From assembly GCF_002114215.1 (NCBI RefSeq), contig NZ_NCTE01000504.1, positions 1-33,733 on the forward strand: a DNA stretch of 33,733 bases. Direction: 5' to 3'. The notes beneath the pieces were generated by a model. That model searched no databases, was not told the origin of the DNA, and was given only the letters and a program-made list of their open reading frames with translations. The translations under genes and the position numbers were made by a program. Origin of the DNA: Streptomyces sp. 13-12-16 (GTDB taxonomy: Bacteria > Actinomycetota > Actinomycetes > Streptomycetales > Streptomycetaceae). Below, one piece after another: positions 7,007-29,755 of the stretch (its first letter is position 1; each line of letters starts with the position of its first letter).

Positions 7007-8098
7007 ATGGCCCGTCACAATCAGACCGTCGGCCCGATCCGTTCCGCCGTGTCCGTTGATCTCGTCCCGAGTCTGAGCCGAGTGGACGCCAGTCAGTTCG
7101 ACGGACTCGACGACACGGCAGGAGCGGTCGGCTGCTACCACCGGATGATGCAACGTGAGCACGATGGCCGTTGGAGGGTGCAGTACGCCCGGGCGACCGA
7201 CGGAACGCAGCTCCTGGCGGTACTCCCGACCTACACACCCCTTGCCGGGCACTGGGCGGACCGTGCCTACGATCCGGGCAACTGGCCCTTCCCGGCCGGC
7301 GTCGCAGACGGCACCAGCCCTGGCTCGTACGTGCTGGTCGGCGGCAACGCCGATATGCGCTCGGCCACTTACGTGAGTCGACACCTGCAGGACGGTCCTG
7401 CCTTCAAGCGGCTGCTCACGGCTGTGGCCCGAGCTGCTGCAGCCGAGAACCGCGGCCTGCTCTTCCCTTATGTGCACCAGAAGTTGAGGGAACTCCTCGA
7501 CCACTCGTCAGGAGGGCGCATCACCTGGGCGCCGCTGGGACAGGAAGCACACTTCGTGGATGCCCTGGCGACCGACAGCGAGGAGCACTACGGAGCACGC
7601 ATTAGGCGGGTGCTGCGCCGCGACCGGAACCTGATGGAGCAGCAGCAGGTGACCACCGCGGTGCACTCCTGGCCAGAGATCGCGCACACGGCAGCCGAGG
7701 TAATCGCTCAGCACAACACCCGGAAGGGAATCCCCGACCACTCGGAGTTCGTCCGCATGCGTTATGCCCAGTGGATCGACTGCCCGTCGGTCGAACTCGT
7801 CGTCTTCACCGCTCGCGCCGGCGGCGTGGAAGGCGTGGCCACAGCGCTGAAATGGCGGGACCAGCTGGATGTCTATGAAATTGCCCTGACCGGAGAGGAG
7901 AGCCCTGAAAGGCTTGCCACCTACGTGAGCCTGCTGTTCCACCAGCCGGTCCGGTTCGGGCGGGCCCACGGACTGAGGCAGCTCCGGGGCGGACTGGAAG
8001 CGACGAAAGCCAAAGGAATGCGCGGAGCCATCTTCAAGCAACTCCACGGGGGCGTTCTGAGCGCCTCCGCCAGCAGAGAACTCGCGAACAGAATGTAG
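7007..8098 (+). CDS. FemAB/GNAT-like acyltransferase
   Basis: A 363-residue protein whose C-terminal half (about residues 185-350) resembles the GNAT-like (Acetyltransf_6 / peptidoglycan-bridge, FemAB-related) fold. It has YGARIRRVLRRDRNLMEQQ, then EFVRMRYAQWI, VELVVFTARAGGVEGVATAL and, near the end, LEATKAKGMRGAIFKQLHG, which parallels the Glu...Ala-Lys...Arg-Gly block of that family. Such enzymes move an acyl or aminoacyl group, often from a carrier or tRNA, onto an amine. It is the first intact gene of the cluster and stands 80 bases before the aromatic hydroxylase. The ATG at 7007 has a GAAGGGA about 13 bases upstream, rather far, so a later start such as GTG 7049 is possible. Substrate unknown. 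Confidence 0.6.
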   Translation: MARHNQTVGPIRSAVSVDLVPSLSRVDASQFDGLDDTAGAVGCYHRMMQREHDGRWRVQYARATDGTQLLAVLPTYTPLAGHWADRAYDPGNWPFPAGVADGTSPGSYVLVGGNADMRSATYVSRHLQDGPAFKRLLTAVARAAAAENRGLLFPYVHQKLRELLDHSSGGRITWAPLGQEAHFVDALATDSEEHYGARIRRVLRRDRNLMEQQQVTTAVHSWPEIAHTAAEVIAQHNTRKGIPDHSEFVRMRYAQWIDCPSVELVVFTARAGGVEGVATALKWRDQLDVYEIALTGEESPERLATYVSLLFHQPVRFGRAHGLRQLRGGLEATKAKGMRGAIFKQLHGGVLSASASRELANRM

Positions 8099-8178
8099 CA
8101 CTCTCACCGCTCCATAGGTGTGCGCATGATTTCGAACCGAGTAGGCCCATCATCAATCAGAAGAAAGTGGGGAATCCC

Positions 8179-9051
8179 ATGGAACGAGTCGCTAAATCTT
8201 ACGCACCGCTCATCGAAAACAAGGGCGGCAAAACTACTGTCACGCTGTCCGAGGACCACCCGGGTTACGGCGATCGGCGCTATGTAGAGCACCGTGAGCG
8301 TATTGCCGCCGCGGCTCTCCATGCGCGAGCGGGCGATCCGGCACCGTACGTCATGTATTCGGAGGAGGATGACTCGACCTGGCGACTTGTCACCACTGCT
8401 CTGTCGAAACTGCATGAGCAGTACGCGACTGCAGAGTATCTAACGTGCATTGACGCGCTAAATCTGCCTTCCAACCGAGCTCCGCAGCTTCGGGACGTCT
8501 CGGATGCGATCGGCGAGGTCACCGGTTTCAGGATGTTCCCGGCCGCCGGGATCGTCGGGACCACCACCTTCTACGGTGGGCTCGCCGACAAGTCTTTCAA
8601 CGCCACCCAGTACATACGTCACGCCACCCAGCCGTGGTTCTCTCCTGAACCCGACATGATCCACGAAATTATCGGGCACGGCGCCCATCTGGCCAACGAA
8701 CGCTGGGCGCGAATGTACGAGCTCGTCGGGAAGGCGGTGCTGCGGTTGACCAACCCAGAAGCCGTGCAACTTGTCTCCCGGGTCTTCTGGTTCAGCATGG
8801 AGTGCGGCGTCGTGGAGGAAAAGGGGGAACTCAAGGTGTGGGGTGCGAGTCTCCTCACCTCGACCGGTGAAATGGCACAGTTCCGCAATGCCGATATCAG
8901 GGAACTTGATCTGGCCGGCATGGCCAAGCAGGGTTATGAGCCGGACGTCTACCAGCCGGTTCTCTACAAAGCCAGGTCGCTCGGACACTTCGAGGATTTC
9001 CTCGAAGATTTCCTTACGACGGTTGATGACGACTCGCCTTACGCCATCTGA
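8179..9051 (+). CDS. Pterin-dependent phenylalanine hydroxylase, probably 3-hydroxylase
   Basis: A 290-residue bacterial-length aromatic amino acid hydroxylase without a regulatory domain. The iron triad is present: His162 and His167 in PDMIHEIIGHGAH, and Glu208 in WFSMECGVV. Aligned without gaps to the mammalian phenylalanine hydroxylase motif, the residue after the metal Glu is Cys209 (normally Phe), and Ser224 in WGASLLTS replaces Gly. From memory, phenylalanine 3-hydroxylases of the pacidamycin type use Cys and Thr at these two places to direct oxygen to the meta position, so meta-tyrosine is the expected product. ATG 8179 (GTGGGG upstream) was chosen over GTG 8167. A pterin-4a-carbinolamine dehydratase lies at 29405-29755. 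The aromatic hydroxylase call is firm, the regiochemistry inferred. Confidence 0.85.
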   Translation: MERVAKSYAPLIENKGGKTTVTLSEDHPGYGDRRYVEHRERIAAAALHARAGDPAPYVMYSEEDDSTWRLVTTALSKLHEQYATAEYLTCIDALNLPSNRAPQLRDVSDAIGEVTGFRMFPAAGIVGTTTFYGGLADKSFNATQYIRHATQPWFSPEPDMIHEIIGHGAHLANERWARMYELVGKAVLRLTNPEAVQLVSRVFWFSMECGVVEEKGELKVWGASLLTSTGEMAQFRNADIRELDLAGMAKQGYEPDVYQPVLYKARSLGHFEDFLEDFLTTVDDDSPYAI

Positions 9052-9167
9052 TTCGAACAGGAAGCAGTAACGGAAGTGCACGGGGCGCGGGGCGCCGCGA
9101 GCAGGGCACTGCCTCCGCTCGCAAACGCTTCGCGCCACCGTACCTTAACGCCCAGAAAGCGCTCTTC

Positions 9168-10127
9168 ATGCACAGGATTGAAACCGATGTAGAAGTGATC
9201 GTGACCTGGTGGAACAAGGACCGCCATTCTGATAGCCCCAGCACCATGCAGCGGAGCAACCTGAAGACCGGCGATCGGCTGGACTTCGGCATATCAGGCA
9301 GCACGGGTAGGTTGCAGCCTAATGCCATACCCAGCCTTGGCGCGTTTGAGGTATCCGGCCATCACCTCCTCTTCTCGAACCTCACCGCCAGCGCCACCTT
9401 CGCTATTGAGAACCTGGAAGGCGGCACGGAACTGGTCAAGGCACCCCCCCGCCGACTAAACATGGTGATCCCGTTCGAGATCTCGCGCATTCTGATCCCC
9501 TCCGCTACGAGCATCAGCGAACTCACCGTCTTCGCACCCCCGCCGGCCCTGCTCGGATCCGACCAGGCCGCTACGTATACCGAGTCCGTCATATCCAACT
9601 TGGACATGACGAGCAAGTACTTCGCCGTGCTGGTCGCACTGTGCGAGCCGCGGCTGCGCGGTTCCTCCATGGCGGCAGTGCCCTCCGTCCAGGAGATGGT
9701 CAAGAGACTGAAGGGCACAAAACAGTTCAGAGATGCGAACCGCAACAGCATTAGTTATCACATCGACTACCTGACGGACCGCAAACTTCCGGTCAGCCAG
9801 TGGGCCAAGTGCGTGGACGAGGGCCGCAGGCACTCCAAGCGCGAGGCCCTGGTTGCGTTCGCACTCCGGTTCGACCTGGTCCGAGAGGAACACCTCGGCC
9901 TGCTCGAGCCGGCACGACTCCCAAGCAGGGAGCGGAAGCTAACGCTGAACGTGATGAGTGGGACCAGCGAAGGCGGCCTGTTGCAGCAGCCGGCCAAGCA
10001 GGTTCTGGAGTTGACCGATCATCCAGATCACGAGCGTGGTGAGCGGGCCGAGGGTGGACGGGAGAACTGCCGTAACGGACACAGCCCTCTCCGGAGGGCT
10101 GACTCACCATGCCTGCAGGGGACGTGA
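9168..10127 (+). CDS. FHA-like domain protein, putative regulator
   Basis: A 319-residue protein. Residues about 5-100 look like the FHA-type beta sandwich often seen in actinomycete regulators: VIVTWWNKD, LKTGDRLDFGI, IPSLGAFEVSGHHLLFSNL, TFAIENLEGG and PFEISRILIP. Residues about 140-235 are alpha-helical (KYFAVLVALCEPRLR, VQEMVKRLKG, NSISYHIDYLTDRKL), consistent with a winged-helix DNA-binding part. That layout suggests a cluster-situated regulator, but no binding motif is proven. The tail beyond residue 270 is low in order and overlaps a hairpin at 10082-10101, so the true C-terminus may be altered. No Shine-Dalgarno sequence is obvious before ATG 9168; GTG starts about 10 codons later are possible. 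Confidence 0.5.
   Translation: MHRIETDVEVIVTWWNKDRHSDSPSTMQRSNLKTGDRLDFGISGSTGRLQPNAIPSLGAFEVSGHHLLFSNLTASATFAIENLEGGTELVKAPPRRLNMVIPFEISRILIPSATSISELTVFAPPPALLGSDQAATYTESVISNLDMTSKYFAVLVALCEPRLRGSSMAAVPSVQEMVKRLKGTKQFRDANRNSISYHIDYLTDRKLPVSQWAKCVDEGRRHSKREALVAFALRFDLVREEHLGLLEPARLPSRERKLTLNVMSGTSEGGLLQQPAKQVLELTDHPDHERGERAEGGRENCRNGHSPLRRADSPCLQGT
10082..10101. terminator. Hairpin at the 3' end of the regulator gene
   Basis: CAGCCCTC, a 4-base loop (TCCG) and GAGGGCTG form a perfect 8-bp stem. It overlaps the last codons of the upstream frame, which is unusual for a terminator and hints that the coding end may once have been earlier. Confidence 0.5.
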
Positions 10128-10218
10128 CAAAGATGAATACCCGTCTAGCCTGCGACGATCATGCAGAGCTGGGCGGTTCACCTGCTGCGGAACAGTTTCA
10201 GATACGCGGGTCGGCAGG

Positions 10219-10619: not shown

Positions 10620-11387
10620 ATGAAGCCCGCACTCCTGAAGGTCGGGACTTGGAACATCGGGGGCGGAATCCTTGGCAGATCCCATCAGCAAGGCGTAAAT
10701 CCGTCACTCGACCATTATGCATCTGTCCTGGACAAGCACCGACCCGACGTGCTCTGCCTGCAAGAGGCCCACGACTATCACGACCGTCGGATGAATCAGA
10801 CGGAATGGCTGGCGAAACATTTGGGGTATCCGTACTTCGCATCGTTTCCGACGAGCAAGTCTCACATGATGGAAAATGCTTCCCTGGCGCTCGGGATCGT
10901 GTCCCAGTTCCCCATCCGGGACGCCGTTTACAAGCAGTTCCCGAATCCCAGGCTCCAGGTTGTCGGCCCGAACGGGGACGATTGGACGCTACACGATAAG
11001 GGTTATGTCGTCGGGCGGTTGGATCTCGACACCGGAACGCTCGGCCTGATCAACGGGCACTGCTTTCCGCTGCAACACTTCGATATAAGCCCGACCGAGC
11101 CGATGTTTGTGCAAATGTGGGACATGCTGACGGCCGATCTGCTAACTGCCGGCTGGGCTGGCCCAGCACTCGCCGCCGTCGACCTGAACTACGCGCGGAT
11201 AGAAGACCTGTTGGCTGAAGTCCTGCGTCCGGCTCGTTACCTAAATGCATTCGACAGCACTCCCACGACACCCCAGGGCGTACAGAAGGACTACATTCTC
11301 TACAAGCACTCGATCCGCCTGCTCACCACGACGGTGGCGGCGGCCGGTTCTGACCACTCATATTGCCAGGCGAGTTTTCAACTGTGA
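10620..11387 (+). CDS. Endonuclease/exonuclease/phosphatase-family hydrolase
   Basis: A 255-residue protein with the full EEP motif set: Asn12 in GTWNIGGG, Glu49 in VLCLQEAHD, His147 in LINGHCFPLQ, Asp188 and Asn190 in AAVDLNYAR, Asp224 in KDYILY, and the terminal Asp245-His246 pair in GSDHSY. The metal-dependent phosphoesterase active site is therefore intact. The family includes nucleases, sphingomyelinases and small-molecule phosphatases; the short, unadorned form gives no substrate. In a biosynthetic cluster it might remove a phosphate from an intermediate or precursor nucleotide, which is inference. No signal peptide was seen, so it should act in the cytosol. It is followed by a 185-base gap without a gene before the aminotransferase. 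Confidence 0.75.
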   Translation: MKPALLKVGTWNIGGGILGRSHQQGVNPSLDHYASVLDKHRPDVLCLQEAHDYHDRRMNQTEWLAKHLGYPYFASFPTSKSHMMENASLALGIVSQFPIRDAVYKQFPNPRLQVVGPNGDDWTLHDKGYVVGRLDLDTGTLGLINGHCFPLQHFDISPTEPMFVQMWDMLTADLLTAGWAGPALAAVDLNYARIEDLLAEVLRPARYLNAFDSTPTTPQGVQKDYILYKHSIRLLTTTVAAAGSDHSYCQASFQL

Positions 11388-11572
11388 CTCGAGGTCACCA
11401 CAGTGCCCAACCTATCATGATCGCTTCAATCGGATCAGGTCTCCGATCCTGTTACTTGTTGGGGCCCCAGAGAGCCTAGGTTGAGCCAGACTGAGCTCGA
11501 GTTGCAACGGGCAGCAGTACAGCAATTTCGAGCTTTCAAGACCCGATGCCCCGTCCCTTGGAGTGTTCAACA

Positions 11573-12853
11573 ATGCAGAATTCCACGTCAACGAGTTCAC
11601 TGTGGCGGCCTTGGACTCCGATCACCCAGCAGGCCAACTCGATGCGGATCGTCGAAGCGAAGGGAAACCGCGTCCGTGATGCCGAGGGCAAGTGGTACCT
11701 CGACGGTATCTCTGGTGTCCTGAACGCGTCCTGCGGGCACGGACATCCGCGACTGATCGAGGCCGCGACCCGGCAGTTTCAGCAGCTCGTCCACTACGAC
11801 CCCATGGTGTCCACCCACGATCCCGCCGAGACGCTGGCTTCGCGGCTGGCCGAGATCGCGCCGGGCGAGCTGAACGAGACCGTCCTGACCAATAGTGGCT
11901 CGGAGGCCACCGAGGCAGCCCTCAGGATCGCGCTGCAGTACTGGCGCAACAACGGCGAGGACCGCAACCGGGTCATCACCTTCGAGGCGGCCTACCACGG
12001 CACCACCTACCTGGCTCAGCAGCTCTCGGGGCTGCCGTTCACGGTCAGTGAATGGGCTCCGCCCTTCCCTGTCGACCACGTCTCCCTGCCCGCGTCACCC
12101 CGCGAGATCCGCACCGAAGAGGGCGCCGACGCGCTGATCGGGCTGTTCACCAGGGCGCTTGAGGCCGGCCCACCCGCAGCAGCGGTCATGGTCGAGCCGC
12201 TGCTTGGCCTCGGCGGCTGCGTCGTGCTTCCCGCGGGATTCCTCGCTCGGCTCCGGAAGTTGTGCGACCAGCATGGAGCGCTACTCATCCTCGACGAGGT
12301 GTTCTGCGGATTCGGCCGCACCGGCCGGATGTTCGGCTTCGACCACGACGGAATCACGCCGGACATCGTCACCCTTAGCAAGGGCATCAGCGGCGGTTAC
12401 CTACCGCTGGCCGCGGTGATGGTCACCTCCTCGATCAAGGAGACCTTCATCCGGGAGCCGATCGCCCAGGGGCTGCGCTACGGGCACACGACGGGCGGCC
12501 ACGCCGTCGCGGCCGCTGTCGGAAACACAGTGCTCGACATCATGGCCGACGAAAAGTTGGTGGAGAACTCGGCGGCCCAGGGCGCTACGTTGCTGAAGGG
12601 TCTGGGAAAGCTCGAGTCGAGCCCGCTGATCGCCGACGTCCGCGGGCTCGGACTGGTGGTCGCCATCGAGGCCGATGCGCCAGAGTCCGCTGCCGCGATC
12701 GCGGAGGCCACGGCTCGGGCCGGGGTGATGACGCGTCACGAGCGCGGCGTGATCCGGATCGCGCCTCCGTTGACGCTCACCGACGACGACACGGCGGAGA
12801 TTCTCCAGAAGATCGGCACCGCCGTTGAGGATGCCGATGCGGCACGTCGCTGA
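11573..12853 (+). CDS. Class III PLP aminotransferase
   Basis: A 426-residue fold-type I aminotransferase of the ornithine/acetylornithine/omega-transaminase class. Visible are TNSGSEATEAALRIA (PLP phosphate site), YHGTTY, Asp241 in LILDEVFCGFGRTG, the PLP Lys270 in TLSKGISGG, and GHTTGGHA near the C-terminus. I chose ATG 11573, with TTGGAG about ten bases upstream, over the in-frame ATG 11546; the N-terminal LWRPWTP segment is normal for the family. It would swap an amino group between an aldehyde or ketone and an amino donor. The cupin gene follows 70 bases downstream and is probably co-transcribed. In this cluster it could aminate an aldehyde made by the flavin oxidase, but no substrate can be read from the sequence. 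Confidence 0.9.
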   Translation: MQNSTSTSSLWRPWTPITQQANSMRIVEAKGNRVRDAEGKWYLDGISGVLNASCGHGHPRLIEAATRQFQQLVHYDPMVSTHDPAETLASRLAEIAPGELNETVLTNSGSEATEAALRIALQYWRNNGEDRNRVITFEAAYHGTTYLAQQLSGLPFTVSEWAPPFPVDHVSLPASPREIRTEEGADALIGLFTRALEAGPPAAAVMVEPLLGLGGCVVLPAGFLARLRKLCDQHGALLILDEVFCGFGRTGRMFGFDHDGITPDIVTLSKGISGGYLPLAAVMVTSSIKETFIREPIAQGLRYGHTTGGHAVAAAVGNTVLDIMADEKLVENSAAQGATLLKGLGKLESSPLIADVRGLGLVVAIEADAPESAAAIAEATARAGVMTRHERGVIRIAPPLTLTDDDTAEILQKIGTAVEDADAARR

Positions 12854-12923: not shown

Positions 12924-13658
12924 ATGATAGGGGCTTCGTCGGAGTCGACCTTGCAGGAACTGAAGGACCAGCTGGAACGGATCGTGGACAGCGGACACGG
13001 CATGACTTTTCAGGGGTCGGAATCGACGGTCCGCCGTCTTTCCGAGTCCGGAGAATTGCGGGCTCTGATCGGTCAGATCATTTCTGACAAGGCTGCCCTT
13101 GCCGACATGGCCGCCCGTTCGTACTACCACGCGAACAACTTCCTGAAGGTCGTCCTGCTGGCCGGCGACAAGAACCCCTGGAAGCTCCGCCTTCACCTGT
13201 GGCATCCGCAGCCGGACGCCTCCGGGACCATCACGGAGGACATCCACTCGCACCGTTGGGACTTCACAACCGCGCTCGTGGTCGGCGAGTACTTCGCCCA
13301 GGAGTTCAAGATCGGCCCTGGCACCGAGTACTACCACTACAAGTATCTGCCGATCGGGCAGGGGAAGACCTTCTCACTGGAGATACAGGGCAAGGAGCAG
13401 CTGTACGCCGCATTCGAGGCGGTCCTGCCCGCAGGCACGATCTACCACATCAACCACGAGATTCTGCACTGCATCTCTCGATCCGCCGGCAAGGCCGCAG
13501 CGTCACTCGTCCTGCAGCAGCCCGCCGTTGAGGGTTTCACAAACGTCTACCGGACCTCAACGGTCGGCGAGCAGGCCAAGACCGACATCGAGGTGCAGCG
13601 GCCGACCGTCGCCCAGCTGCGGGATGAGCTGAAGCTCTTCCTGACCTGGCTCGGCTGA
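12924..13658 (+). CDS. Cupin-fold protein, possible metal-dependent oxygenase or isomerase
   Basis: A 244-residue protein with a cupin core. The first cupin motif is DIHSHRWDFTTALVVGEY (His108 and His110), the second LPAGTIYHINHEILHC (His175, His178, His182). The N-terminal 60 residues are helical (ELKDQLERIVDSG). The layout resembles thiol-dioxygenase-like cupins, but no substrate is indicated. ATG 12924 was chosen because GGGAG lies eight bases upstream; the frame is open further back but overlaps the aminotransferase. It forms a two-gene unit with that enzyme, followed by a hairpin and then a MITE-like element. Cupins with such histidines usually bind Fe, Ni or Mn and catalyse oxidation, dehydration or isomerisation. 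Confidence 0.6.
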   Translation: MIGASSESTLQELKDQLERIVDSGHGMTFQGSESTVRRLSESGELRALIGQIISDKAALADMAARSYYHANNFLKVVLLAGDKNPWKLRLHLWHPQPDASGTITEDIHSHRWDFTTALVVGEYFAQEFKIGPGTEYYHYKYLPIGQGKTFSLEIQGKEQLYAAFEAVLPAGTIYHINHEILHCISRSAGKAAASLVLQQPAVEGFTNVYRTSTVGEQAKTDIEVQRPTVAQLRDELKLFLTWLG

Positions 13659-14748: not shown

Positions 14749-16065
14749 ATGCAGCATTCGCACGAGATTTCTTCCCCTGAGTACGATCGGGTTGCGGTAG
14801 CGGAGCTCGGCCGGACACCGGGCATCGAATCAGCGCGGCTGTTCAAGAACGCCGCACAGCGCCGGAACCTCACCGGGGCCGAACTGGTCCTGGCCCGTAC
14901 GGCGCGAGAAGAGATCCAGCAGCGCGCACGCAGGATCTCCGCATTGACCGAGAAGGTGGCGGGCCTCCCGCTGACCGCGGACGAATGTTCCGTTCTGCGG
15001 CCACCCTTCGGCCGGGCCACCCACCTGCCCAGTCCCGATCGCCCATACGTACACCTGGCCGTCCACACGGGACAGGGCGGCGTGAGCGTCACGCCCGTCT
15101 GGGCGGCGGCGGCCGGTGGGAACGTGGTCCTCAGCACAGTGGAGAACAGGATCAAGGCAAGGGCGACAGCTCTCGATCCGCTAGTCGCGCTGTCCGTTCC
15201 TGCCGGTGTCGGGAGCCAGATATGCCTAGAGATCGGCGGCTTTGCCAGACAGTCGCCGGACTCCGAGCGCGAACTGATCCGTACCCTGGCCAGAATGTAC
15301 AGCAAGCCGAAAGTCGGCGAGCAGGTGGACGGCAACTATACGAGCTGGGACCAGCGCGAACGGAACGAGCGGCTGCGGCTGGAGATTCTGGCCTACCGCG
15401 TACGCAATGAACTCGGTGACGATCCCGTCTGCCGGTCCGCTCCCTACGTCCAGGAGCTGGCACCAAGATTCCGCACCGCCGACGCGGCCCGACCGTCCGG
15501 GCGCGGCTCGCACGATGAATTCTGGGGGCCGGACGAGAGGTACGGAGAGGACGAGCCTGAGCTGCGTGGCGCCCGTGACGAGCTGGCGATCCTCGGCATG
15601 ACGCGCCGGGGCAAGGAGAGCACGTACCGCTCCCTGAGCCCCACCTATGGGCACCTCGCCTGCTTCGACCACCACGGACTTCTGCGCTGTCGCCAGATCG
15701 GGTTTGATGTGATCGACGTCAAGGGCGAGGCCCGGATTTCCTTCCTCGTCAAGAAGCGTGACACCGGAACCCTCCGGAAGAACCCCGCTGTTGCCGTGTC
15801 GGTCGCGCAGTACAGCAGCGGGAGCGTCTGGCTGCAGGCCCAGGGTCTGATTCAGTTCCACGACGATCCGGGTATGGTCCAGGACGCGGTCCACCGCCTC
15901 GAGAGCCGGTACAACCGCGTCCACCACCGCTCGGCGCTCGACCTGGGCCAGGGTGGGTCCAGACCTGAGGATCATGTGCTGGCGACCCTGTCCCGCCAGA
16001 AGCTCAGCAGTCGGTACCGGGAGACGGAGCGATCGTTGCGTTCTGCCCATGCGCTCGGGAAGTGA
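14749..16065 (+). CDS. Tandem split-barrel (PNPOx-like) flavoprotein
   Basis: A 438-residue protein that appears to hold two FMN- or F420-binding split-barrel regions of the pyridoxamine-phosphate-oxidase type. The first spans about residues 85-170 (PYVHLAVHTGQGGVSVTPVWAAAAG, then VLSTVENRIKARATALDPLVALSV). The second spans about residues 300-400 (YGHLACFDHHGLLRCRQIGFDVI, RISFLVKKRDTGTLRKNPAVAVSV and WLQAQGLIQFHDD). They are joined by a charged linker rich in Arg, Asp and Glu. Single-barrel members are usually about 130-200 residues, so the fused form is unusual. The gene begins just after the IS5 element and converges on the flavin oxidase, with 29 bases between the stops. A GGAG lies about ten bases before ATG 14749. 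It could reduce or oxidise a C=N or C=C bond; the substrate is unknown. Confidence 0.6.
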   Translation: MQHSHEISSPEYDRVAVAELGRTPGIESARLFKNAAQRRNLTGAELVLARTAREEIQQRARRISALTEKVAGLPLTADECSVLRPPFGRATHLPSPDRPYVHLAVHTGQGGVSVTPVWAAAAGGNVVLSTVENRIKARATALDPLVALSVPAGVGSQICLEIGGFARQSPDSERELIRTLARMYSKPKVGEQVDGNYTSWDQRERNERLRLEILAYRVRNELGDDPVCRSAPYVQELAPRFRTADAARPSGRGSHDEFWGPDERYGEDEPELRGARDELAILGMTRRGKESTYRSLSPTYGHLACFDHHGLLRCRQIGFDVIDVKGEARISFLVKKRDTGTLRKNPAVAVSVAQYSSGSVWLQAQGLIQFHDDPGMVQDAVHRLESRYNRVHHRSALDLGQGGSRPEDHVLATLSRQKLSSRYRETERSLRSAHALGK

Positions 16066-18939: not shown

Positions 18940-19073
18940 ACCGATAGCCCCTCACTACTGCCGCGTGATCGCTGATGCTGCCCCAGTCGGATGCAGCGGA
19001 ACTACAAGCTACGGATCGGCATGATTCGCATGTACTGACACCGGCCAGGATCGCGCCGACACTGCCCAGACCT

Positions 19074-19815: not shown

Positions 19816-20062
19816 GGTGGAGACCGCTCCACCGATGCGGCTGTCGAGGCGCATCCTGCGCGACGAAGCCCGCAGGCAGGAACGACAGCGACATCATGGG
19901 CACGGGCGCAGCCGACCGCTGCCGCGAAAGATCAAAGATAGTCCTGTACGGGCTGAAGTACTGACAGGTGCCAGTACCGGGATGTTGCCCACGCAATGCA
20001 TTGTCGACACAAACGTGCGGTGCCAGATCTTGCATGCACTGCTCCAGTGTCGAGGAGTTGCA

Positions 20063-21412: not shown

Positions 21413-22701
21413 AGATCCAAGGGATCGCCTACAGCGAGCTGGCGGAGCGCTTCGGCACGCCGCTCTACGTCTACGACGGTGATATGCTGCTGCGGCTCCT
21501 GTCCGAGTTGTCCGAGGCGTTGCATCCCGCGCTCGACATCTTCTTCTCGCTCAAGTCGAACCCGAATGTCAGTGTATTCGGTACTTTGCGGGAGGGCGGG
21601 GCGCACGCCGAGGTGTCTTCGCTGCTCGAACTGCGCACCGCGCTGCTGGCCGGAGCCCGTCCGCAGGACATCATCTTCCTCGGACCCGGCAAGAGCGATC
21701 TGGAGCTGGATGCCTGCCTGCGGGCGGGAATCTACGCCGTCGTCGCCGAGTCGTTCGAAGAGGTAGACCGGATCGAGCGGCTGGCGGCCGGGCTCGGTGT
21801 CCACCAGCGGGTGCTGCTGCGGATCAATCCGGCGTTCCTGGTCAGCGGCTCCCGGCTGACCATGGGCGGCAAGCCGCGGCAGTTCGGCATCGACGAGGCT
21901 CAGGTGCTCGCCGCCGGGAACCTGACGTCGCGTTACCGGCACGTTCAGCTGGCTGGCATCCACGTGTACATGGGCACCCGGATCCTCGACGCCGAGGTGG
22001 TCGGAAAGAACACGCGGTACATCCTGGAACTGGCCGATCGGGTGGCGGTGGCCACCGGGATCCCCTTGGAGGCTGTCGACATCGGCGGCGGACTGGGCGT
22101 TGCCTATTTCGACGGGGAGGAGGACCTCAGCCCGGCGTCGCTGGGTGAGGAGCTTAACCCGCTGATCGATGAGTTCGCGCGGAACCACCCGGATACCCGG
22201 CTGCTGATGGAGTCGGGCCGCTTCCTGACCGCGCCGGCGGGCGTCTACCTGACGTCAGTGCGTTATGTGAAGGAGTCGATGGGGGAGCTGTTCGCCGTAG
22301 CGGACGGCGGCACCAACCACCACATGGCCGCTGTGGGCATCGGCTCGTTCGCCAAGCGCAACTTCCCGGTGCGGTTACTCAACCGCGAGTCCGCCGACGA
22401 CGGGCTCCAGCAGTGGAACGTCACCGGTCCGCTCTGCACGCCCAACGACACGCTGCTCAAGCGCGCCGCGTTGCCGCCGCTGCGCGTCGGTGACCTCCTG
22501 GGCGTCACCCAGTCGGGTGCCTACGGTCCCTCGGCCTCGCCCGGCCTCTTCCTGGGGCACGGCTTCCCCGCGGAGGTTCTCGTCCGGGACGGTGAGGCGC
22601 ATCTGGTGCGCAGCCGTGATCTGCCGGAGGACATGTTGCGTCAACAACACCTGTACAGCCGGGTCGCGTCGTCGGCCGGCACAAGAAATGAGGTCTCATG
22701 A
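21409..22701 (+). CDS. PLP (fold-type III) decarboxylase, BtrK-like
   Basis: A 430-residue alanine-racemase-fold decarboxylase of the diaminopimelate/ornithine decarboxylase group. PLP Lys49 is in FFSLKSNPN, the phosphate-binding loop is VDIGGGLG (224-231), the catalytic Cys343 is in TGPLCTPND, and QSGAYG is at 368-373. The start overlaps the ATP-grasp stop and the stop overlaps the carrier protein start, each by ATGA. In butirosin the equivalent BtrK decarboxylates glutamyl-carrier protein to a GABA thioester, and the neighbours here suggest the same use of a carrier-bound amino acid. The gene contains a TTA leucine codon at 22375-22377 (codon 323), rare in Streptomyces and read by the bldA tRNA, so expression may be tied to development. 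Action on a free amino acid is the alternative. Confidence 0.88.
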   Translation: MKIQGIAYSELAERFGTPLYVYDGDMLLRLLSELSEALHPALDIFFSLKSNPNVSVFGTLREGGAHAEVSSLLELRTALLAGARPQDIIFLGPGKSDLELDACLRAGIYAVVAESFEEVDRIERLAAGLGVHQRVLLRINPAFLVSGSRLTMGGKPRQFGIDEAQVLAAGNLTSRYRHVQLAGIHVYMGTRILDAEVVGKNTRYILELADRVAVATGIPLEAVDIGGGLGVAYFDGEEDLSPASLGEELNPLIDEFARNHPDTRLLMESGRFLTAPAGVYLTSVRYVKESMGELFAVADGGTNHHMAAVGIGSFAKRNFPVRLLNRESADDGLQQWNVTGPLCTPNDTLLKRAALPPLRVGDLLGVTQSGAYGPSASPGLFLGHGFPAEVLVRDGEAHLVRSRDLPEDMLRQQHLYSRVASSAGTRNEVS

Positions 22702-22937
22702 ATCGCGAGCAGACTGTCGAGCACATCCGCGTCGCGCTCTCCAAGGTGCTCGACCGGGAGATTGCGCAGCTGTCCGAGGACGTCCGCCTCGTCGAGGACC
22801 TCTCCCTGGACTCGACCAGCGTCATCGAGCTGCTGATGGCCCTCGAGGACATCATGGGAGTGGAGTTGGACGTGGAGGATCTACAGCCCGAGGTGTTCGA
22901 GACTGTCGCGAGCCTGGCCGACTACCTGGTGACATGA
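22698..22937 (+). CDS. Acyl carrier protein, BtrI-like
   Basis: A 79-residue carrier protein, acidic, with the phosphopantetheine serine at Ser39 in LVEDLSLDSTSVIELLMALE. It is a type II ACP rather than a GGxS peptidyl carrier. It overlaps the decarboxylase at its start and the holo-ACP synthase at its stop by four bases each. Its place between a ligase/decarboxylase pair and its own activating enzyme makes it the likely scaffold on which an amino acid is loaded and decarboxylated. Confidence 0.93.
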   Translation: MNREQTVEHIRVALSKVLDREIAQLSEDVRLVEDLSLDSTSVIELLMALEDIMGVELDVEDLQPEVFETVASLADYLVT

Positions 22938-23326
22938 GGATCGGCGTCGACTTGCTCGCCATCCGGCGGTTCTCCCGGATCGCCCAGCACGAGCGTTGCC
23001 GTTCGCTGGTCTTCACCCAGGCCGAGCTCGCCCAAGCCTCCGGCCTGGAACCGGCACGCAGTGTGGAGCGCTTGGCGGGTCGCTTCTGCGTCAAGGAGGC
23101 GACCTGCAAGGTCCTTGGCCGAGGATTCGGGCAAGGGATCCACTGGCGGGACATCGAGGTGCTCGGCGACCGCTGGGGCAGGCCCGCCGTCACGCTGCAC
23201 GGTGGCGCCCAGCGGATCGCCGAGGAAATGGGCCTGAGTGAGGTGGCAGTGACGCTCACGCACCAGGCCGATCTAGTGGTTGCAGTGGCTGTGGCGGTCA
23301 CTGACAACCGAGGAAAGCGCGACTGA
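22934..23326 (+). CDS. Holo-ACP synthase-type phosphopantetheinyl transferase
   Basis: A 130-residue AcpS-type enzyme. Motif one is RIGVDLLAIRRF with Asp6, and motif two is GRFCVKEATCKVLG with Glu55 and Lys54. It transfers phosphopantetheine from coenzyme A to the carrier serine. The usual length of AcpS (about 120-130) fits. It begins inside the stop of the carrier protein gene, so the two are made together. A dedicated AcpS, rather than the more common Sfp type, within a peptide-like cluster suggests it serves the ACP at 22698; it may or may not also serve the peptidyl carrier at 18694. Confidence 0.9.
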   Translation: MRIGVDLLAIRRFSRIAQHERCRSLVFTQAELAQASGLEPARSVERLAGRFCVKEATCKVLGRGFGQGIHWRDIEVLGDRWGRPAVTLHGGAQRIAEEMGLSEVAVTLTHQADLVVAVAVAVTDNRGKRD

Positions 23327-23453
23327 CGGCCTCGCAGGCCGCGAGACGCGGCTGCTTCTTCCGGGGACGGGCTTCCGCATCCAGCGTCGAGCCCGGCCTC
23401 GTCTGCTCGCCCGGTCGGCGTCCGGCCGCCCTTTCGCACGAGGGGATTCTTCC

Positions 23454-24296
23454 GTGACTGATCGCAACTTGATATCCGGAATTGACCAGAACGAGTTCAT
23501 CAAAAGCTATCTCTCCAAGAACAAGCCGCTTGTTTCCAGGGGGTGTTTCCCGGGGGCCGAGCAGCCGGATTCGCCGTGGAATCTTGATCTCCTGGCAAGA
23601 AGGTTCGGCAACTGCCACGTCCCGGTCTTCGACAGCCTTTTCGAGATGCAGCAAACGGTTAAGTTCAGTGATTACGCATCGACGATTCACGATGAACGTT
23701 CCGACGAAGAGCCCGTGCCTTACATGCGCTGGTACGCCAGACAGCGCCATTTTCAGATGATACGCGCAGATAAGGCGTTCGCGGAAATGGCGGACAGCTG
23801 GGCGGCTCCTTCGTGGCTACCTTCGGAAAATTACGTTTTCCCGCCTATCGAGCGTAACGCGGATCCCGTGCGGGACAGCTTTCCCGCCAAGGGAATTTTC
23901 GTCTGCGCTGCCGGTGGGCGTACCCGTCTGCACGTGGATCCATGGGCAAGCGACGCTGTGCTCTGTCAGGCCTTCGGGGAGAAGCGCTTCGTCATGTACC
24001 CCCCCAGCGCGGCGGAGTTCCTATCCGACGGGGAGTCTGTTATCGACCTGGAACACCCGGATAATGTGCGGTTCCCCAGGTGGAGATCAATCAGCCCCAC
24101 TGTAGCTGTCACACTTTCTCCAGGGGACGCCATTTTCATTCCTTCCGGATGGTTCCATGCCGCTGTGGCGCTCACGCCCAGCGTGTCCGTGACGTGGAAT
24201 TTCGTGCACGAGGTGAATGCCGACCGGTTTGCGGCATATCTTGAAGCTGGCGGTTCCACGGACCCGACGGTCAGATATTTCCAGGGGTCTCGGTGA
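23454..24296 (+). CDS. JmjC/cupin_8-type Fe(II)/2-oxoglutarate oxygenase
   Basis: A 280-residue protein. The C-terminal half is a JmjC-like cupin: the iron motif HVD (His160, Asp162) in GGRTRLHVDPWASD, Lys177 in GEKRFVMYPP, and the distal His235 in IPSGWFHAAVAL. All metal ligands are present, unlike the other oxygenase-like gene at 25686. Such enzymes hydroxylate amino acids, peptides or proteins using 2-oxoglutarate. GTG 23454 follows an ACGAGGGG site. It lies 127 bases after the synthase gene and is followed by the MFS gene. A tailoring hydroxylation on the carrier-bound or final product is inferred. Confidence 0.8.
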   Translation: MTDRNLISGIDQNEFIKSYLSKNKPLVSRGCFPGAEQPDSPWNLDLLARRFGNCHVPVFDSLFEMQQTVKFSDYASTIHDERSDEEPVPYMRWYARQRHFQMIRADKAFAEMADSWAAPSWLPSENYVFPPIERNADPVRDSFPAKGIFVCAAGGRTRLHVDPWASDAVLCQAFGEKRFVMYPPSAAEFLSDGESVIDLEHPDNVRFPRWRSISPTVAVTLSPGDAIFIPSGWFHAAVALTPSVSVTWNFVHEVNADRFAAYLEAGGSTDPTVRYFQGSR

Positions 24297-24363
24297 GCAC
24301 AGGGCCAGAAAACCAGATACCTGTCAGCGTACTCCTCTTCCAGAAAGCCTCCACACTGTGACA

Positions 24364-25635
24364 ATGAGTTCGAAACGCATTTCGGGCGTTATGCGTCTAC
24401 TGATCGCGGGACAGGGGATATCGGCCATCGGCAACGGGCTTGTGGTGCCGCTGACCTTGATCTATCTGAACCAGGTGCGCGGGATCCCACTGGCGATCAC
24501 CGGCACTCTGTTCACCGCCGCCGCTGTCATGGGCCTCGTCACGGTACCGCTTGCCGGGGTCCTGCTGGACCGGGTAGGGGCACGGCCGGTGCTCATCGCG
24601 GCCATCGCCGGGCAGGCGTTGGCCGCGGTTGGGCTGGTGTGGGCGCACAGCGCCCTGACGGCGCTGCCCGTACTGCTCCTGCAGGGAGCAGCGCTCGCGC
24701 CGACGTTCCCTGCGTTCAACACCCTGTTGGCCGGGCTCAGCAGCGACCCGGAACAGGAGCAGCGGGCGATGGCGCTGAACTTCTGCTTCGTGAACGCTGC
24801 ACTCGGAGCCGGCGCCATGGTCGGCGCAGCGGTGGCGAACGTGCATGAGGTCGCGTCGTTCCAGGTCATGTTCGCGGGTAACGCGGTGCTGGGTCTGGTG
24901 TTCTGCGCCCTAGTGCTCTTGGTGCCGAATGTGCGGCCGCCGCACGACGAGCAGCGGCAGGAGAAGGTCGGATACCGTGACGTGCTCGCGCCGCGCAGCC
25001 TGCGCACCGTAATGGTCGTGTCGCTGGTGCTCGCCTTCACCGGCTACTCCGCGTTCGACTCAGGCCTGCCCGCCTACGCCTCGGTGGTCTCCCAGGTGCC
25101 GGTGCGTGTCATCGCGCTGGCTCTGGCGGTGAACACGGTCGTCATCGTCGTCGCGCAGCTGTTCATGCTACGGCTGGTGCGGTCGCTGCGGCGCAGCAGG
25201 GCGCTCGCGCTGATCGGCGTGATCTGGAGTGCGTCTTGGCTGCTCTTTGGGCTGTCGGCCTTGCCTGACCAGAGCTGGGCACGGACCGCACTGGTCCTCA
25301 CGTTCGCCGGCCTGTTCGGGCTCGGCGAAACGGTCCTCGCGCCAACACTCGTACCGTTGGTGAACAGCCTCGCAGACAAGCGGGTCCGCGGCCGGGCCAA
25401 CGCGATGTCCACCGCGGCGTTCTCGCTGGCGCTCATGGTGTCCCCGGCGCTGTCGACCGGTCTGATCTCGGCCGGCTTGGCGGCCACCTGGATCGGGCTG
25501 CTGTGCGTGGGCTGCCTCGGCTCGGCGTTGCTCGGTATGCGGCTCGGCAGGCAGCTGACGGTGGAACAGGACAGCGTGGCATCGCCAGACCAACGCATAG
25601 TCGAGCCGGAACTACAGGTGTCCCGAACCGATTGA
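24364..25635 (+). CDS. MFS exporter
   Basis: A 423-residue membrane protein with about twelve hydrophobic helices. The front half has LLIAGQGISAIGNGLVVPLTLIYL and VPLAGVLLDRVGARPVLIA (the loop 2-3 MFS motif is LLDRVGARP). A central charged loop (PNVRPPHDEQRQEKVGYRD) divides the halves, as usual in this superfamily. It probably exports the product or gives self-resistance; import is less likely in such a cluster. ATG 24364 is taken; a GTG six bases upstream is possible. It lies between the JmjC gene and the SyrP-like gene, with about 50 bases to the latter. Confidence 0.88.
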   Translation: MSSKRISGVMRLLIAGQGISAIGNGLVVPLTLIYLNQVRGIPLAITGTLFTAAAVMGLVTVPLAGVLLDRVGARPVLIAAIAGQALAAVGLVWAHSALTALPVLLLQGAALAPTFPAFNTLLAGLSSDPEQEQRAMALNFCFVNAALGAGAMVGAAVANVHEVASFQVMFAGNAVLGLVFCALVLLVPNVRPPHDEQRQEKVGYRDVLAPRSLRTVMVVSLVLAFTGYSAFDSGLPAYASVVSQVPVRVIALALAVNTVVIVVAQLFMLRLVRSLRRSRALALIGVIWSASWLLFGLSALPDQSWARTALVLTFAGLFGLGETVLAPTLVPLVNSLADKRVRGRANAMSTAAFSLALMVSPALSTGLISAGLAATWIGLLCVGCLGSALLGMRLGRQLTVEQDSVASPDQRIVEPELQVSRTD

Positions 25636-25685
25636 CGACGATGCCCACCGAGTTCCGCACTATCCGAGTCAATATGAGGAGTCAA

Positions 25686-26627
25686 GTGAGCGAGATCGTT
25701 CCCACGTGGATGGATGGGCTGCCCGTTCCTTCCTTCGAGGCCCCGGTCAGCTCACCCCTCACGTCGCTGCGAGACATGAGGGCGACCATTCGTGAACAGC
25801 TGCTAGTCCACGGAGCAGTTCTTATCCATGGCTTGCCCATGGATAAGCCGGACAGTCTGGCCGAGGCGCGAGATTCGCTGGGTATCGGCAGCTTCACACC
25901 CACCGAGGTGTTCAACCGCAGGAGCGACTTCGGGAACGGCATCCTCTCGCCGATCAGCTGGCCGCAGAACCGGCACATCTGCCCGGTCCAGGAGGGCTCC
26001 TTCAGCAGGACGTTCCCCTCGGTGGTCCTCACCGCGTGCATCACCCCGCCGGACGGTGACGGGCGGGCCTATCTCAGCGATGCACGTCGGGTAGCCGGTC
26101 ACCTGCCCGCGCACCTCGCCGAGCGCGTACGAGAGGATGGTTGGATCATGACACGGGCTTTCCACGGTGGCTTCGGCATCACGTGGCCGGAGGCCTTCTC
26201 CGTGACTGACCGGGCAGAGCTCGAGGAGCTGTTCGAGGCCGAGAGGGTCGAATCCGGATGGCTCCCCAACGGCACGTTGCACACAGTGCGACACCTGCCC
26301 GGCTTCATCGACCATCCGGAGACCGGGGAGGAGTGCTGGTTCAACCAACTCTCCTTCCTCAACGCCGGCAGCCTGGACAGAACCGAGCGTGCGTTCATGA
26401 CCAAGGCATTCGGGAAGCACCTTCCGATGAACTCCTTCTTCGGTGACGGATCGCCTCTGTCGGAGGAGGATGTGGCGGCCATAGATCATGCCTACGACTC
26501 GGTGAGGATCGAGCTCCCGTGGCGCCGCGGAGACCTGCTGCTCACCGACAACATCATCATGGGCCAAGGCCGGTCGCCGATCGAGGGTGCTCCCGAGTTC
26601 CTCGTCGCCCTAGGCAAGAACTATTGA
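25686..26627 (+). CDS. SyrP/TauD-like protein lacking iron ligands (putative pseudoenzyme)
   Basis: A 313-residue protein with the overall layout of the SyrP/clavaminate-synthase group. The usual HNExSY motif appears as VQEGSF at 101-106, so the first His is Val while the acid (Glu103) stays. In place of the distal His in DNxxxxHGR it has Gln294 (TDNIIMGQGRSP). The Arg that binds 2-oxoglutarate, normally about nine residues after that His, is also missing (GAPEFLVAL). The neighbouring motifs PSVVLTACITPP and YLSDARRV still align. The frame is intact, so selection seems to have kept it. It may bind substrate without iron chemistry, act non-oxidatively, or be degenerating. GTG 25686, with GAGGAG four bases upstream, was preferred; ATG 25641 is the alternative. 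Confidence 0.7.
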   Translation: MSEIVPTWMDGLPVPSFEAPVSSPLTSLRDMRATIREQLLVHGAVLIHGLPMDKPDSLAEARDSLGIGSFTPTEVFNRRSDFGNGILSPISWPQNRHICPVQEGSFSRTFPSVVLTACITPPDGDGRAYLSDARRVAGHLPAHLAERVREDGWIMTRAFHGGFGITWPEAFSVTDRAELEELFEAERVESGWLPNGTLHTVRHLPGFIDHPETGEECWFNQLSFLNAGSLDRTERAFMTKAFGKHLPMNSFFGDGSPLSEEDVAAIDHAYDSVRIELPWRRGDLLLTDNIIMGQGRSPIEGAPEFLVALGKNY

Positions 26628-26653: not shown

Positions 26654-26817
26654 ACCGTACCCCCTGACGGATGCCAGTACAGCTCGATGGCTCGATCGGT
26701 ATCTTACTGGTTCGGAGATAAGGGACTGGCCATCACGCACCGCACCGTGCGCTCTGAGGGAGTGGATGTCAAGTATGGCGGCCATTGAACTTCTCGATGA
26801 AATCACAGGGTGATCGC

Positions 26818-27300
26818 ATGGTTTTCAACGAATACACACCCCAGTCAACGTCCTCCGACGGCACATATCCTATATTGACGCCCCGCGTCATGCCGTCACT
26901 GCCGCAGCGGCTCTGGTCCGAGAGTGATTGGGAGCGCATCAGAGCAGGCGGGTCCCACCAGGGCAGGGGAACGCGATGGATTTCTCGCTGCCACGACAAC
27001 ACCCTCTACCTGTATCGTCGACTGACCGGGTACGGAATCTACGAAGCGGCGTTCCTGCCGACTGAGACCGGTGACTGGAAAATCTCCGGTGGCGTGATCG
27101 AGAGTGAGTCCGAGCGTTACATATCCCCGTCCACAGAATACGACTGTCTCGTCTTGGAGCTGGTCATCAGCGTCGTCCTGCTCAATGAACCCGTCAGGGA
27201 ACTCCGCTCCTCGATGACACGCATGATCCGAGACATGTCGGGGGTCATCGACATGCCTTCTCACATTGTCGATCACAGTGTCCTGGGTGGTCAGCCCTGA
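26818..27300 (+). CDS. Hypothetical protein of the cluster
   Basis: A 160-residue protein of unknown family. ATG 26818 has AGGGTGA about six bases upstream. The product starts VFNEYTPQSTSSDG, has a central basic-aromatic part (RGTRWISRCHDNTLYLYRRLTGYGIYEAAFLP), a segment with GDWKISGGVIESESERY, and a hydrophobic helix (CLVLELVISVVLLNEPV) near residues 110-126, followed by a helical end. No catalytic motif or signal peptide was recognised. The good ribosome site and typical codon use argue that it is real. It lies between the SyrP-like gene and the damaged carrier protein copy. Confidence 0.55.
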   Translation: MVFNEYTPQSTSSDGTYPILTPRVMPSLPQRLWSESDWERIRAGGSHQGRGTRWISRCHDNTLYLYRRLTGYGIYEAAFLPTETGDWKISGGVIESESERYISPSTEYDCLVLELVISVVLLNEPVRELRSSMTRMIRDMSGVIDMPSHIVDHSVLGGQP

Positions 27301-27406
27301 TGGGTGTCAGTAGAGGCCAGCTCTCCAGGTCGGTAGCTTACCGTCACGCCTTAACTTACAGGCTGCCGTACCGGAAAGCATGCATAGATCGCGAGGAGCT
27401 CCCGAT

Positions 27407-27591: not shown

Positions 27592-27629
27592 GACCGCCCC
27601 CATCGAACGCCACGAGATGAGAGGTCACC

Positions 27630-27794: not shown

Positions 27795-27842
27795 GGGGTC
27801 AAGCGCCCGATGAGGCGTCCCCTGGAGTGTGGACACGGGGGT

Positions 27843-29104: not shown

Positions 29105-29119
29105 ACTCCAGGGGCCACC

Positions 29120-29356
29120 TCACTCATAGCCCTGCCCCGAGAACAAGCACATCGCGAGCACGAAATACACCACCACCCGCGCCGGCAGCAGCCGCGAGCG
29201 CTGTTCGACCCGCCCGCACTCCTCCACCACCTCATCCACCAGCTCAGGCGGAAACACCCGCGTCAGCACACCCAGAGCAATCCGGTCCGACAACCGGTCA
29301 CCTGACGACTTCACCTGCCCAGGCCTTGGCACACCCCAACCAACGACCAACACCAC
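29120..29356 (-). pseudogene. IS4-family transposase N-terminal remnant
   Basis: The minus frame reads RLSDRIALGVLTRVFPPELV, VVEECGRVEQRSRLLPARVV and ends VYFVLAMCLFSGQGYE. This is the standard N-terminal domain of IS4-type transposases. The catalytic remainder is absent because the IS3 element begins only a few bases beyond. It is therefore a truncated fragment, and the other part was not found on the far side of the IS3. Confidence 0.8.
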
Positions 29357-29404
29357 TCAAAGTCACCGGTATTGCCTTTAGGCTAGGTCCCGTTGAGGTC
29401 CACT

Positions 29405-29755
29405 CTACTCGCGCTCATTGACCCTGCGTTTCTTCGACGTGACCACGTCGGCACCGTCCTCCGGAGAGATCAAAGAATTGATCTTCGTTGCCATAGAGGT
29501 ATCGAGTTCCGTGATCCGTGATCCAGCGGAATGCGTGCACAGAGCAAAGGTCACACTGCGCCATCGTATATCGATGTCGGGGTGATGATCAGCCTCCTCG
29601 GCCAGCACCGCAACGCTGTTGACGAGGCGGATGGCGGCGGGGAAGTCTGCCGTCTCATGTTCAAGGATGAGTTCATTCCGCCGTAGCGTCCAACCGTTCA
29701 GCGCGGATAGTGCTTCAGCGAGTTGGACTTCACTGAGGGCCACCGGCTTGTTCAC
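29405..29755 (-). CDS. phhB: Pterin-4a-carbinolamine dehydratase
   Basis: A 116-residue protein with the family signature EEADHHPDIDIRW (His57, His58, Pro59), then FALCTHSAGSRITELD with His75 and Asp85. It dehydrates the 4a-hydroxy-tetrahydrobiopterin formed by aromatic amino acid hydroxylases, so that the pterin can be reduced and reused. Its natural partner is the hydroxylase at 8179-9051, about 20 kb away, which suggests that both belonged to one cluster since split or stretched by IS insertions. It lies on the minus strand beyond the IS3 and IS4 remnants, with intact start and stop. No regulatory site was identified in the roughly 260 bases before the GNAT gene. Confidence 0.93.
   Translation of the reverse strand: MNKPVALSEVQLAEALSALNGWTLRRNELILEHETADFPAAIRLVNSVAVLAEEADHHPDIDIRWRSVTFALCTHSAGSRITELDTSMATKINSLISPEDGADVVTSKKRRVNERE

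Follow-up and report, generated by a model that had tools for sequence, protein, structure and literature searches.

What kind of product would be made by a locus that combines a phenylalanine hydroxylase, free-standing peptide synthetase domains and a butirosin-like ligase and decarboxylase, and has such a combination been seen before? The question is raised by a stretch of DNA from Streptomyces sp. 13-12-16, hereafter the window: bases 1-33733 (33,733 bases) of the 123,469-base scaffold C995 in genome G000 (8.7 Mb, 1511 contigs, 98.21% complete), where insertion sequence (IS)-type transposase genes are interspersed among the cluster genes. An earlier note had described positions 7007-29755 as one composite biosynthetic cluster with no recognised precedent. 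The gene families it named agree with our Pfam and NCBIfam calls (Biopterin_H, Pterin_4a, ATP-grasp, PLP decarboxylase, AcpS, PP-binding, Condensation, FAD_binding_4, aminotransferase, Cupin_8/JmjC, TauD and acyl carrier protein (ACP); Table 1). We conclude that the cluster is composite but not unprecedented. It likely belongs to the uridyl-peptide (pacidamycin) lineage, has been rearranged amid IS elements and is truncated at the edge of the window; it would be a variant that lacks diaminobutyric acid (DABA) and carries a unit of the gamma-aminobutyric acid (GABA) type. We would not class it with the standard members, since genes for DABA synthesis, which helps to define the lineage, were searched for and not found.

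The window ends exactly where a 173-N run, a scaffold gap, begins. Across this gap, 0.2 kb past the window end, lies a gene for a 120-residue cupin (C995:33933-34295, minus strand). The corresponding cupin of Streptomyces canus 299MFChir4.1 (genome G235) matched a single small cupin that is represented by seven PDB entries (5njn, 5njo, 5oo4, 5oo5, 5oo8, 5oo9 and 5ooa; E 5e-57 to 6e-56), four of which are assigned to Pac13 in PMC5656905. The G000 cupin is identical to the Pac13 sequence at 95 of 119 positions and retains K16, H42, Y55, Y89, F103 and E108, residues that the same paper includes in the Pac13 active site. Pac13-type genes were found in 5 of 392 genomes of the genus at E 1e-15. Pac13 has been reported to act with the flavoenzyme Pac11 and the aminotransferase Pac5 in forming 4',5'-enamide-3'-deoxyuridine, to which PacI then attaches the peptide (PMC10643210). 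The FAD oxidase, aminotransferase and condensation domain of the window are 69-87% identical to genes that accompany Pac13 in relatives; for Pac11 and Pac5 this is an agreement of families and conserved company, not an alignment to Pac11 or Pac5 themselves. The class-III aminotransferase also has a PDB match, 7qzj. As judged by these homologies, the nucleoside half, a predicted 3'-deoxy-4',5'-enamino-uridine, is well supported, more securely than anything else in the predicted product. The core is that of uridyl peptide antibiotic clusters, and the claim of no recognised precedent does not hold. The proposal of meta-tyrosine joined to a decarboxylated amino acid is plausible for the acyl half, given the hydroxylase and the GABA-ACP-type cassette, but it missed the nucleoside half. 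With Pac13 and its active site standing beside an FAD oxidase and a class-III aminotransferase, a product lacking the nucleoside is hardly credible, and we rejected it.

The same edge accounts for the reported lack of an adenylation (A) domain. None is present within the window, yet the cluster has one: 0.6 kb beyond the window end, past the scaffold gap, the minus strand encodes a 511-residue free-standing A domain (C995:34320-35876), the best of 28 G000 matches to the S. canus A domain (75% identical). Its apparent absence was a window-edge effect, because the window stops at the 173-N run and the A domain lies beyond. An A domain on contig C713 of G000, considered as the missing part, was rejected (58% identical to the S. 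canus A domain; the 8.5-kb contig is PKS-like by eye). Past the A domain and an IS-like gene, L043:5115-19000 (C995:38114-51999) encodes large helicase-like and ATPase-like proteins and looks, by eye, like a defence island. The cluster also extends past position 29755 inside the window, where an acetyltransferase gene, reminiscent of NpsB (PMC4572928), recurs in two relatives; Pac13 and the A domain follow past 33733.

We compared 20 window genes with four relatives: S. canus (contig NZ_KB911605.1, G235:C24, 119,987 bases), S. viridochromogenes NRRL 3413 (G392), S. wedmorensis NRRL 3426 (G393) and a further relative, G387; gcvH, glyA and a serine dehydratase gene, without a match in these four, were left out. 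Seventeen of the 20 match the one S. canus contig at 38-87% identity, the exceptions being the MFS transporter, the small protein at 26785-27300 and the pterin dehydratase, and the same contig carries the A domain (76%) and Pac13 (78%). This bears out the claim of one composite cluster. It also supplies a related locus of the kind that the earlier note had advised looking for: no transposase was recognised there, the five window transposases have no match, each gene lies within 1 kb of its neighbor, and the spacing of the cassette and TauD core genes does not exceed 134 bp. Gene order differs between the window and S. canus. G387 shares 11 of the 20 genes (one as a 45-residue stretch), S. viridochromogenes 10 and S. 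wedmorensis 7, each together with an A domain and Pac13; the S. wedmorensis cluster is split over contigs, and blanks there do not equal absences.

Regulatory sites also tie the parts together in S. canus and in the window. Twenty-nine stretches (L036, L038 and L042 left out) were scanned with what we take to be the consensus of the SsaA operator. With this consensus, the window has two matches at no more than three mismatches, against 0.04 expected, and none of 100 shuffles reached two. One of them, with a single mismatch, precedes the ATP-grasp gene (19958-19977). In S. canus a 20-mer identical to this site stands ahead of the ATP-grasp gene and again between the sulfotransferase and PCP (peptidyl carrier protein) genes, and a two-mismatch site precedes the A domain. 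Nine other loci outside the family (152,488 bases), named as controls after the scan, had no match at up to four mismatches. Sites with exactly four mismatches were not counted, since some of them lie scattered at a distance from cluster genes (e.g., L043:13267). SsaA itself binds five promoter regions of its own cluster (PMC4572928). In the window, the PCP and ATP-grasp genes are separated by transposase remnants, which would suit an account in which IS elements pushed two unrelated clusters together. Both halves, however, occur on one S. canus contig with no recognised transposases and with identical operators, and we rejected this account as very improbable.

On the peptide side, the hydroxylase is likely meta-specific. 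Two positions were compared, C187 and T202 of PacX, the second taken from PMC7027792; both were mapped through the Glu ligand and a spacing of 15, without an aligned PacX sequence. Among 30 sampled enzymes, the mapped pairs were Tyr or Phe with Ala in 18, Thr/Ala in 5, Cys/Thr in G104 and G007, Cys/Ser in the window and S. canus, and other pairs in 3. The Cys/Ser pair is compatible with meta-hydroxylation, in keeping with the meta-type assignment made in the earlier note. Hydroxylase genes were present in 29 of 295 genomes of the genus, the closest being that of S. canus (61%). In a tree of 30 rows (two distant rows, L028 and L029, left out), the window and S. canus enzymes form a pair (100/99) apart from those of S. 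wedmorensis, G104, G007 and Micromonospora, which make up a Cys/Thr clade (100/100). The hydroxylase of the pair was probably acquired separately, since it falls outside that clade. A-domain pocket codes, read from hand-set motifs with the final K assumed, are DPHHFGLIGK in G000 and S. wedmorensis and DPHHIGRIGK in S. canus, all three with a hydroxylase. The code is DLHNFGIIGK in G387 and differs again, as read by eye from the alignment, in S. viridochromogenes; neither has a hydroxylase in the stretches read. These codes fit a substrate of the meta-tyrosine (m-Tyr) type. Selection of the N-terminal Ala and m-Tyr has been attributed to PacU and PacW (PMC4858918).

What the cluster appears to lack sets it apart. 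G387, S. viridochromogenes and S. wedmorensis carry an operon of lyase, kinase, cysteine-synthase/ATP-grasp fusion and aldolase-like genes (84-89% identical to G387), which we read as DABA synthesis. They also carry methyltransferase, PacN-type and PacD-type condensation genes and further nonribosomal peptide synthetase (NRPS) genes, named by resemblance or position. Genome-wide searches of G000 and S. canus covered the fusion enzyme and the PacN-type, PacD-type and methyltransferase genes; the DABA lyase, kinase and aldolase-like genes were searched for in the fetched stretches. Genome-wide, the fusion enzyme is 85-100% identical in the three relatives, and the best matches in G000 (41%) and S. 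canus (34%) are both generic. The N-methyltransferase, assigned by position, occurs in three of the five genomes, with none in G000 or S. canus at E 1e-10. The PacN-type protein, assigned by resemblance, is 70-100% identical in the three relatives; the best G000 match (27%) is generic, and S. canus has only matches of 26-28% and a 78-residue carrier-like stretch at 59%. No PacD-type gene was found in G000, and one 49% gene lies on another S. canus contig. Where the relatives have the DABA, N-methyltransferase and PacN-type genes, G000 and S. canus share an ATP-grasp/decarboxylase/ACP/AcpS/JmjC cassette. This cassette was not seen in the stretches read of the three relatives, and a search of the whole G387 genome at E 1e-20 gave no relative of the ATP-grasp protein.

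Alternatively, the pathway could be a standard uridyl-peptide one that depends on DABA, made by genes elsewhere or by diverged enzymes, with the cassette contributing no more than a side decoration. In favor of this, the A-domain pocket of G000 is the same as in S. wedmorensis, where a DABA operon is present, and on contig C1140 of G000 an ATP-grasp-like gene (37%) stands next to a gene that resembles cysteine synthase (41%). Such pairs nevertheless occur in S. viridochromogenes and S. wedmorensis besides their DABA fusion genes, so they look like part of a different pathway, and each of two genomes independently lacks orthologues of the fusion enzyme, the methyltransferase and the PacN-type protein. 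We regard a DABA-using pathway as unlikely.

The cassette itself resembles the butirosin side-chain genes. As the earlier note had proposed, the decarboxylase beside the ATP-grasp, ACP and AcpS genes is butirosin-like: it scores 290 bits to BtrK and 172 to the best diaminopimelate decarboxylase, as expected of a BtrK-type enzyme for an ACP-bound amino acid, the substrate being a prediction. For BtrJ and BtrI, it is families and adjacency that agree, not alignments to the BtrJ or BtrI sequences. ATP-grasp relatives occur in 31 of 392 genomes of the genus at E 1e-20, and of the 25 loci read, among them those of the window and S. canus, 24 have the decarboxylase gene next to the ATP-grasp gene. 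The nearest cassette outside the family is that of G147 (ATP-grasp 55%, decarboxylase 65%). Cassettes of ATP-grasp and BtrK-like decarboxylase genes, often with an ACP, are widespread in the genus (L093-L115); in G147 and G061 they adjoin KASIII-like genes by eye, which pointed to no known product.

Within the preferred interpretation, a uridyl-peptide cluster lacking DABA, we advance a more specific and tentative proposal, to which we give slightly less than an even chance: that the locus specifies a new subclass of uridyl nucleoside antibiotics, with a carrier-made, possibly hydroxylated GABA taking the place of the N-methyl-DABA/ureido dipeptide core, supplied by a btrJKI-like cassette that has been recruited to the regulon of the pathway. 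The placing of GABA in the DABA position is a prediction.

Several points weigh against the preferred interpretation. Pac13 and the A domain are linked to the window only through the 173-N scaffold gap. Pac13 is the anchor, and the names PacX, Pac5, Pac11, PacB, PacH, PacI and PacW are otherwise given by family and position. The hydroxylase lies outside the clade of other uridyl-peptide hydroxylases, and the gene pair on C1140 has been mentioned. Absences in G000 are weaker than they would be in a closed genome, given its completeness and contig number. The interpretation does not account for transfer of the ACP-bound unit. Finally, no operator was found at up to three mismatches in the G000 stretch with the A domain and Pac13, so that expression in G000 may be impaired. 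This last point, together with the transposases among the genes and a gene order unlike that of S. canus, might indicate a decayed cluster whose operons have been broken by IS elements, so that nothing is made in this strain. The open reading frames (ORFs) are nevertheless open and align nearly full-length to relatives, the hydroxylase, ATP-grasp, A-domain and Pac13 matches have no internal stop, the one-mismatch operator before the cassette is kept, and the S. canus cluster would be unaffected by such decay. We consider decay improbable.

Other genes of the window include candidates for tailoring and regulation (Table 1). The FemAB-like protein at 7007-8098 had no Pfam match above cut-off, but a model of 7049-8095 (pLDDT 75) gave Sba18, FemX and Sbb17 as top Foldseek matches (TM-scores 0.43-0.51). 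This modeled likeness to FemX bears out the FemAB-like assignment of the earlier note. PacB, which adds Ala from tRNA, is described as having the FemX fold (PMC12945691), and the window protein is a candidate for its role. In the mureidomycin cluster, disruption of SSGG-02980 and SSGG-03002 alters whether products carry uracil or dihydrouracil (PMC10714638); the phosphatase-family protein and the reductase of the window would fit this uracil-reduction pair by family, as compared without alignment. For the conserved protein at 9168-10127, in which an FHA domain was expected, the Pfam search gave no match.

Of the two proteins that the earlier note had called oxygenase-like, the JmjC protein keeps its HxD...H motif, whereas the TauD-like protein lacks both aligned His ligands. 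At the positions aligned to the HxE...H histidines of structure 1y0z, which we take to be its iron ligands, the window protein has Val and Gln, S. canus Val/Leu, S. viridochromogenes and G387 Phe/Gln, and S. wedmorensis, by eye, Phe/Gln. The loci compared were window 25503-26627, L086:8955-9890 and L085:7769-8710. An active UMP or amino-acid dioxygenase was dropped as an explanation, both His being changed in the window, S. canus, S. viridochromogenes and G387; judging from these substitutions, the TauD-fold protein of uridyl-peptide-type clusters, although clearly of this fold family, is possibly a repurposed non-oxygenase member.

The conserved protein at 12924-13658 had no PDB or Pfam match of weight, and its model (pLDDT 38) was unusable. 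It recurs with Pac13 and a hydroxylase at distant loci in G007, G104 and a Micromonospora. A further subfamily joins it with Pac13 (58-62% identical to the S. canus protein) and a phosphatase-family protein, at L039/L040 (G104), L081/L082 (G007), L084 (S. canus) and L089 (Micromonospora). Three of these four loci have a serine hydroxymethyltransferase-like gene about 25% identical to the glyA of the window, which suggests another nucleoside chemistry there.

Table 1. Features of the window assigned to the cluster, with the basis of each assignment (percentages are amino acid identities)
Feature	Position	Strand	Basis
FemX-fold (PacB-like) aminoacyl-tRNA-dependent transferase candidate	7007..8098	+	Foldseek Sba18, FemX; 38-42% to relatives
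Pterin-dependent phenylalanine hydroxylase, probably meta-type	8167..9051	+	PF00351 (Biopterin_H); Cys/Ser motif; 61% to S. canus, 43% to S. wedmorensis; tree
Candidate pathway regulator, role inferred	9168..10127	+	First 246 of 319 residues conserved; 75-78% to three relatives; 45-residue match in G387
Exonuclease/phosphatase-family protein; mureidomycin SSGG-02980 family by description	10620..11387	+	PF03372; 68-83% to three relatives
Class-III aminotransferase, Pac5-like role (5'-amination of uridine-5'-aldehyde)	11546..12853	+	PF00202; 86-87% to four relatives
Conserved protein, core of family	12924..13658	+	80-83% to four relatives
F420/FMN-type reductase with PPOX domains; mureidomycin SSGG-03002 family by description	14749..16065	+	TIGR03618 73.1 bits (cut-off 79.05); 69-75% to three relatives
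FAD oxidase, Pac11-like role (uridine to 5'-aldehyde)	16095..17429	-	PF01565 (FAD_binding_4); 82-83% to three relatives
Free-standing condensation domain, PacI-like	17426..18697	-	PF00668; 69-74% to three relatives
Free-standing peptidyl carrier protein, PacH-like	18694..18939	-	PF00550; 65-69% to three relatives
SsaA-type palindrome, 3 mismatches	19032..19051	.	93 bp ahead of PCP start codon
ATP-grasp ligase, BtrJ-like role; ORF conserved from about 19991, start not fixed	19817..21412	+	PF18604, PreATP-grasp/ATP-grasp; 83% to S. canus
SsaA-type palindrome, 1 mismatch	19958..19977	.	Just before ATP-grasp gene
BtrK-like PLP decarboxylase	21409..22701	+	290 bits to BtrK 2j66; 85% to S. canus
Acyl carrier protein, BtrI-like role	22698..22937	+	NCBIfam carrier-protein models; 84% to S. 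canus
AcpS-type phosphopantetheinyl transferase	22934..23326	+	PF01648; TIGR00516 over cut-off; 73% to S. canus
JmjC/Cupin_8 oxygenase; ORF conserved from about 23454	23280..24296	+	PF13621; HxD...H intact in alignment; 70% to S. canus
MFS transporter (ORF)	24217..25635	+	PF07690; no match in relatives' stretches
TauD-fold protein, core of family; ORF conserved from about 25683	25503..26627	+	PF02668; 65-73% to four relatives
Small protein	26785..27300	+	60% to an S. wedmorensis gene adjacent to hydroxylase and A domain
Pterin-4a-carbinolamine dehydratase, one of two in G000	29405..29755	-	PF01329 (Pterin_4a); not found in relatives' stretches
GNAT acetyltransferase, NpsB-like role inferred	30018..30554	+	PF13302; 71-74% to two relatives

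Taken together, these results suggest the following route. By homology, the FAD oxidase, the Pac13 dehydratase and the class-III aminotransferase would give 3'-deoxy-4',5'-enamino-uridine. The ACP would receive glutamate; decarboxylation would then yield GABA-ACP, to which the JmjC protein might add a hydroxyl group, while the hydroxylase would make meta-tyrosine for loading on the PCP by the PacW-type A domain. The condensation domain and ligases would then join both units to the aminouridine, the GABA-type unit standing in for N-methyl-DABA, and the FemX-like protein, the acetyltransferase and the reductase may tailor the product. The simplest product predicted by this route would be m-Tyr-GABA-(3'-deoxy-4',5'-enamino-uridine), C22H27N5O7, with [M+H]+ 474.198. 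The product is probably an undescribed variant of the pacidamycin-family antibiotics and, by analogy with the family, its target is probably MraY. Judged from titles and abstracts in the open literature searched, we recognised no paper that combines uridyl peptides with an ATP-grasp/GABA cassette, and novelty is claimed only against that literature. If the proposal is true, such a pathway, with the nucleoside retained and the linker altered, would reveal what is essential in the scaffold and offer a simpler template for synthesis; it would also exemplify in nature how an omega-amino acid made on a carrier protein can enter an NRPS-type assembly.

Among known systems, the cluster is most readily set beside those of pacidamycin, napsamycin, sansanmycin and mureidomycin, with which it shares the Pac13-type dehydratase, the FAD oxidase, the class-III aminotransferase and the free-standing PCP, condensation and A domains. 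Further likenesses are SsaA-type operators, a FemX-fold transferase and, with mureidomycin in particular, the families of the phosphatase and the F420/FMN reductase (PMC10714638). It differs from these clusters in that no DABA fusion enzyme, N-methyltransferase or PacN-type orthologue was found, a cassette is added and the hydroxylase belongs to another clade. S. canus provides the closest counterpart, sharing 17 of 20 genes, Pac13, the A domain and the operator. Unlike the window, its cluster has none of the window transposases and adds a sulfotransferase and an L-amino-acid-ligase-type ATP-grasp gene, as well as CysD/CysN-like and DpgA-like genes recognized by eye; we know of no product of the cluster on NZ_KB911605.1. 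The S. canus cluster is followed immediately, on its hydroxylase side, by L032:109-4670, where aminotransferase, DpgA-like KASIII and enoyl-CoA-hydratase-like genes form what looks by eye like a set of the dihydroxyphenylglycine type and may provide an extra building block. The butirosin side-chain pathway (BtrJ/BtrK/BtrI) likewise has an ATP-grasp, a BtrK-like decarboxylase and an ACP side by side, but in the window this cassette is set in a nucleoside cluster, with a JmjC protein in place of what we take to be the butirosin flavin hydroxylase, BtrO.

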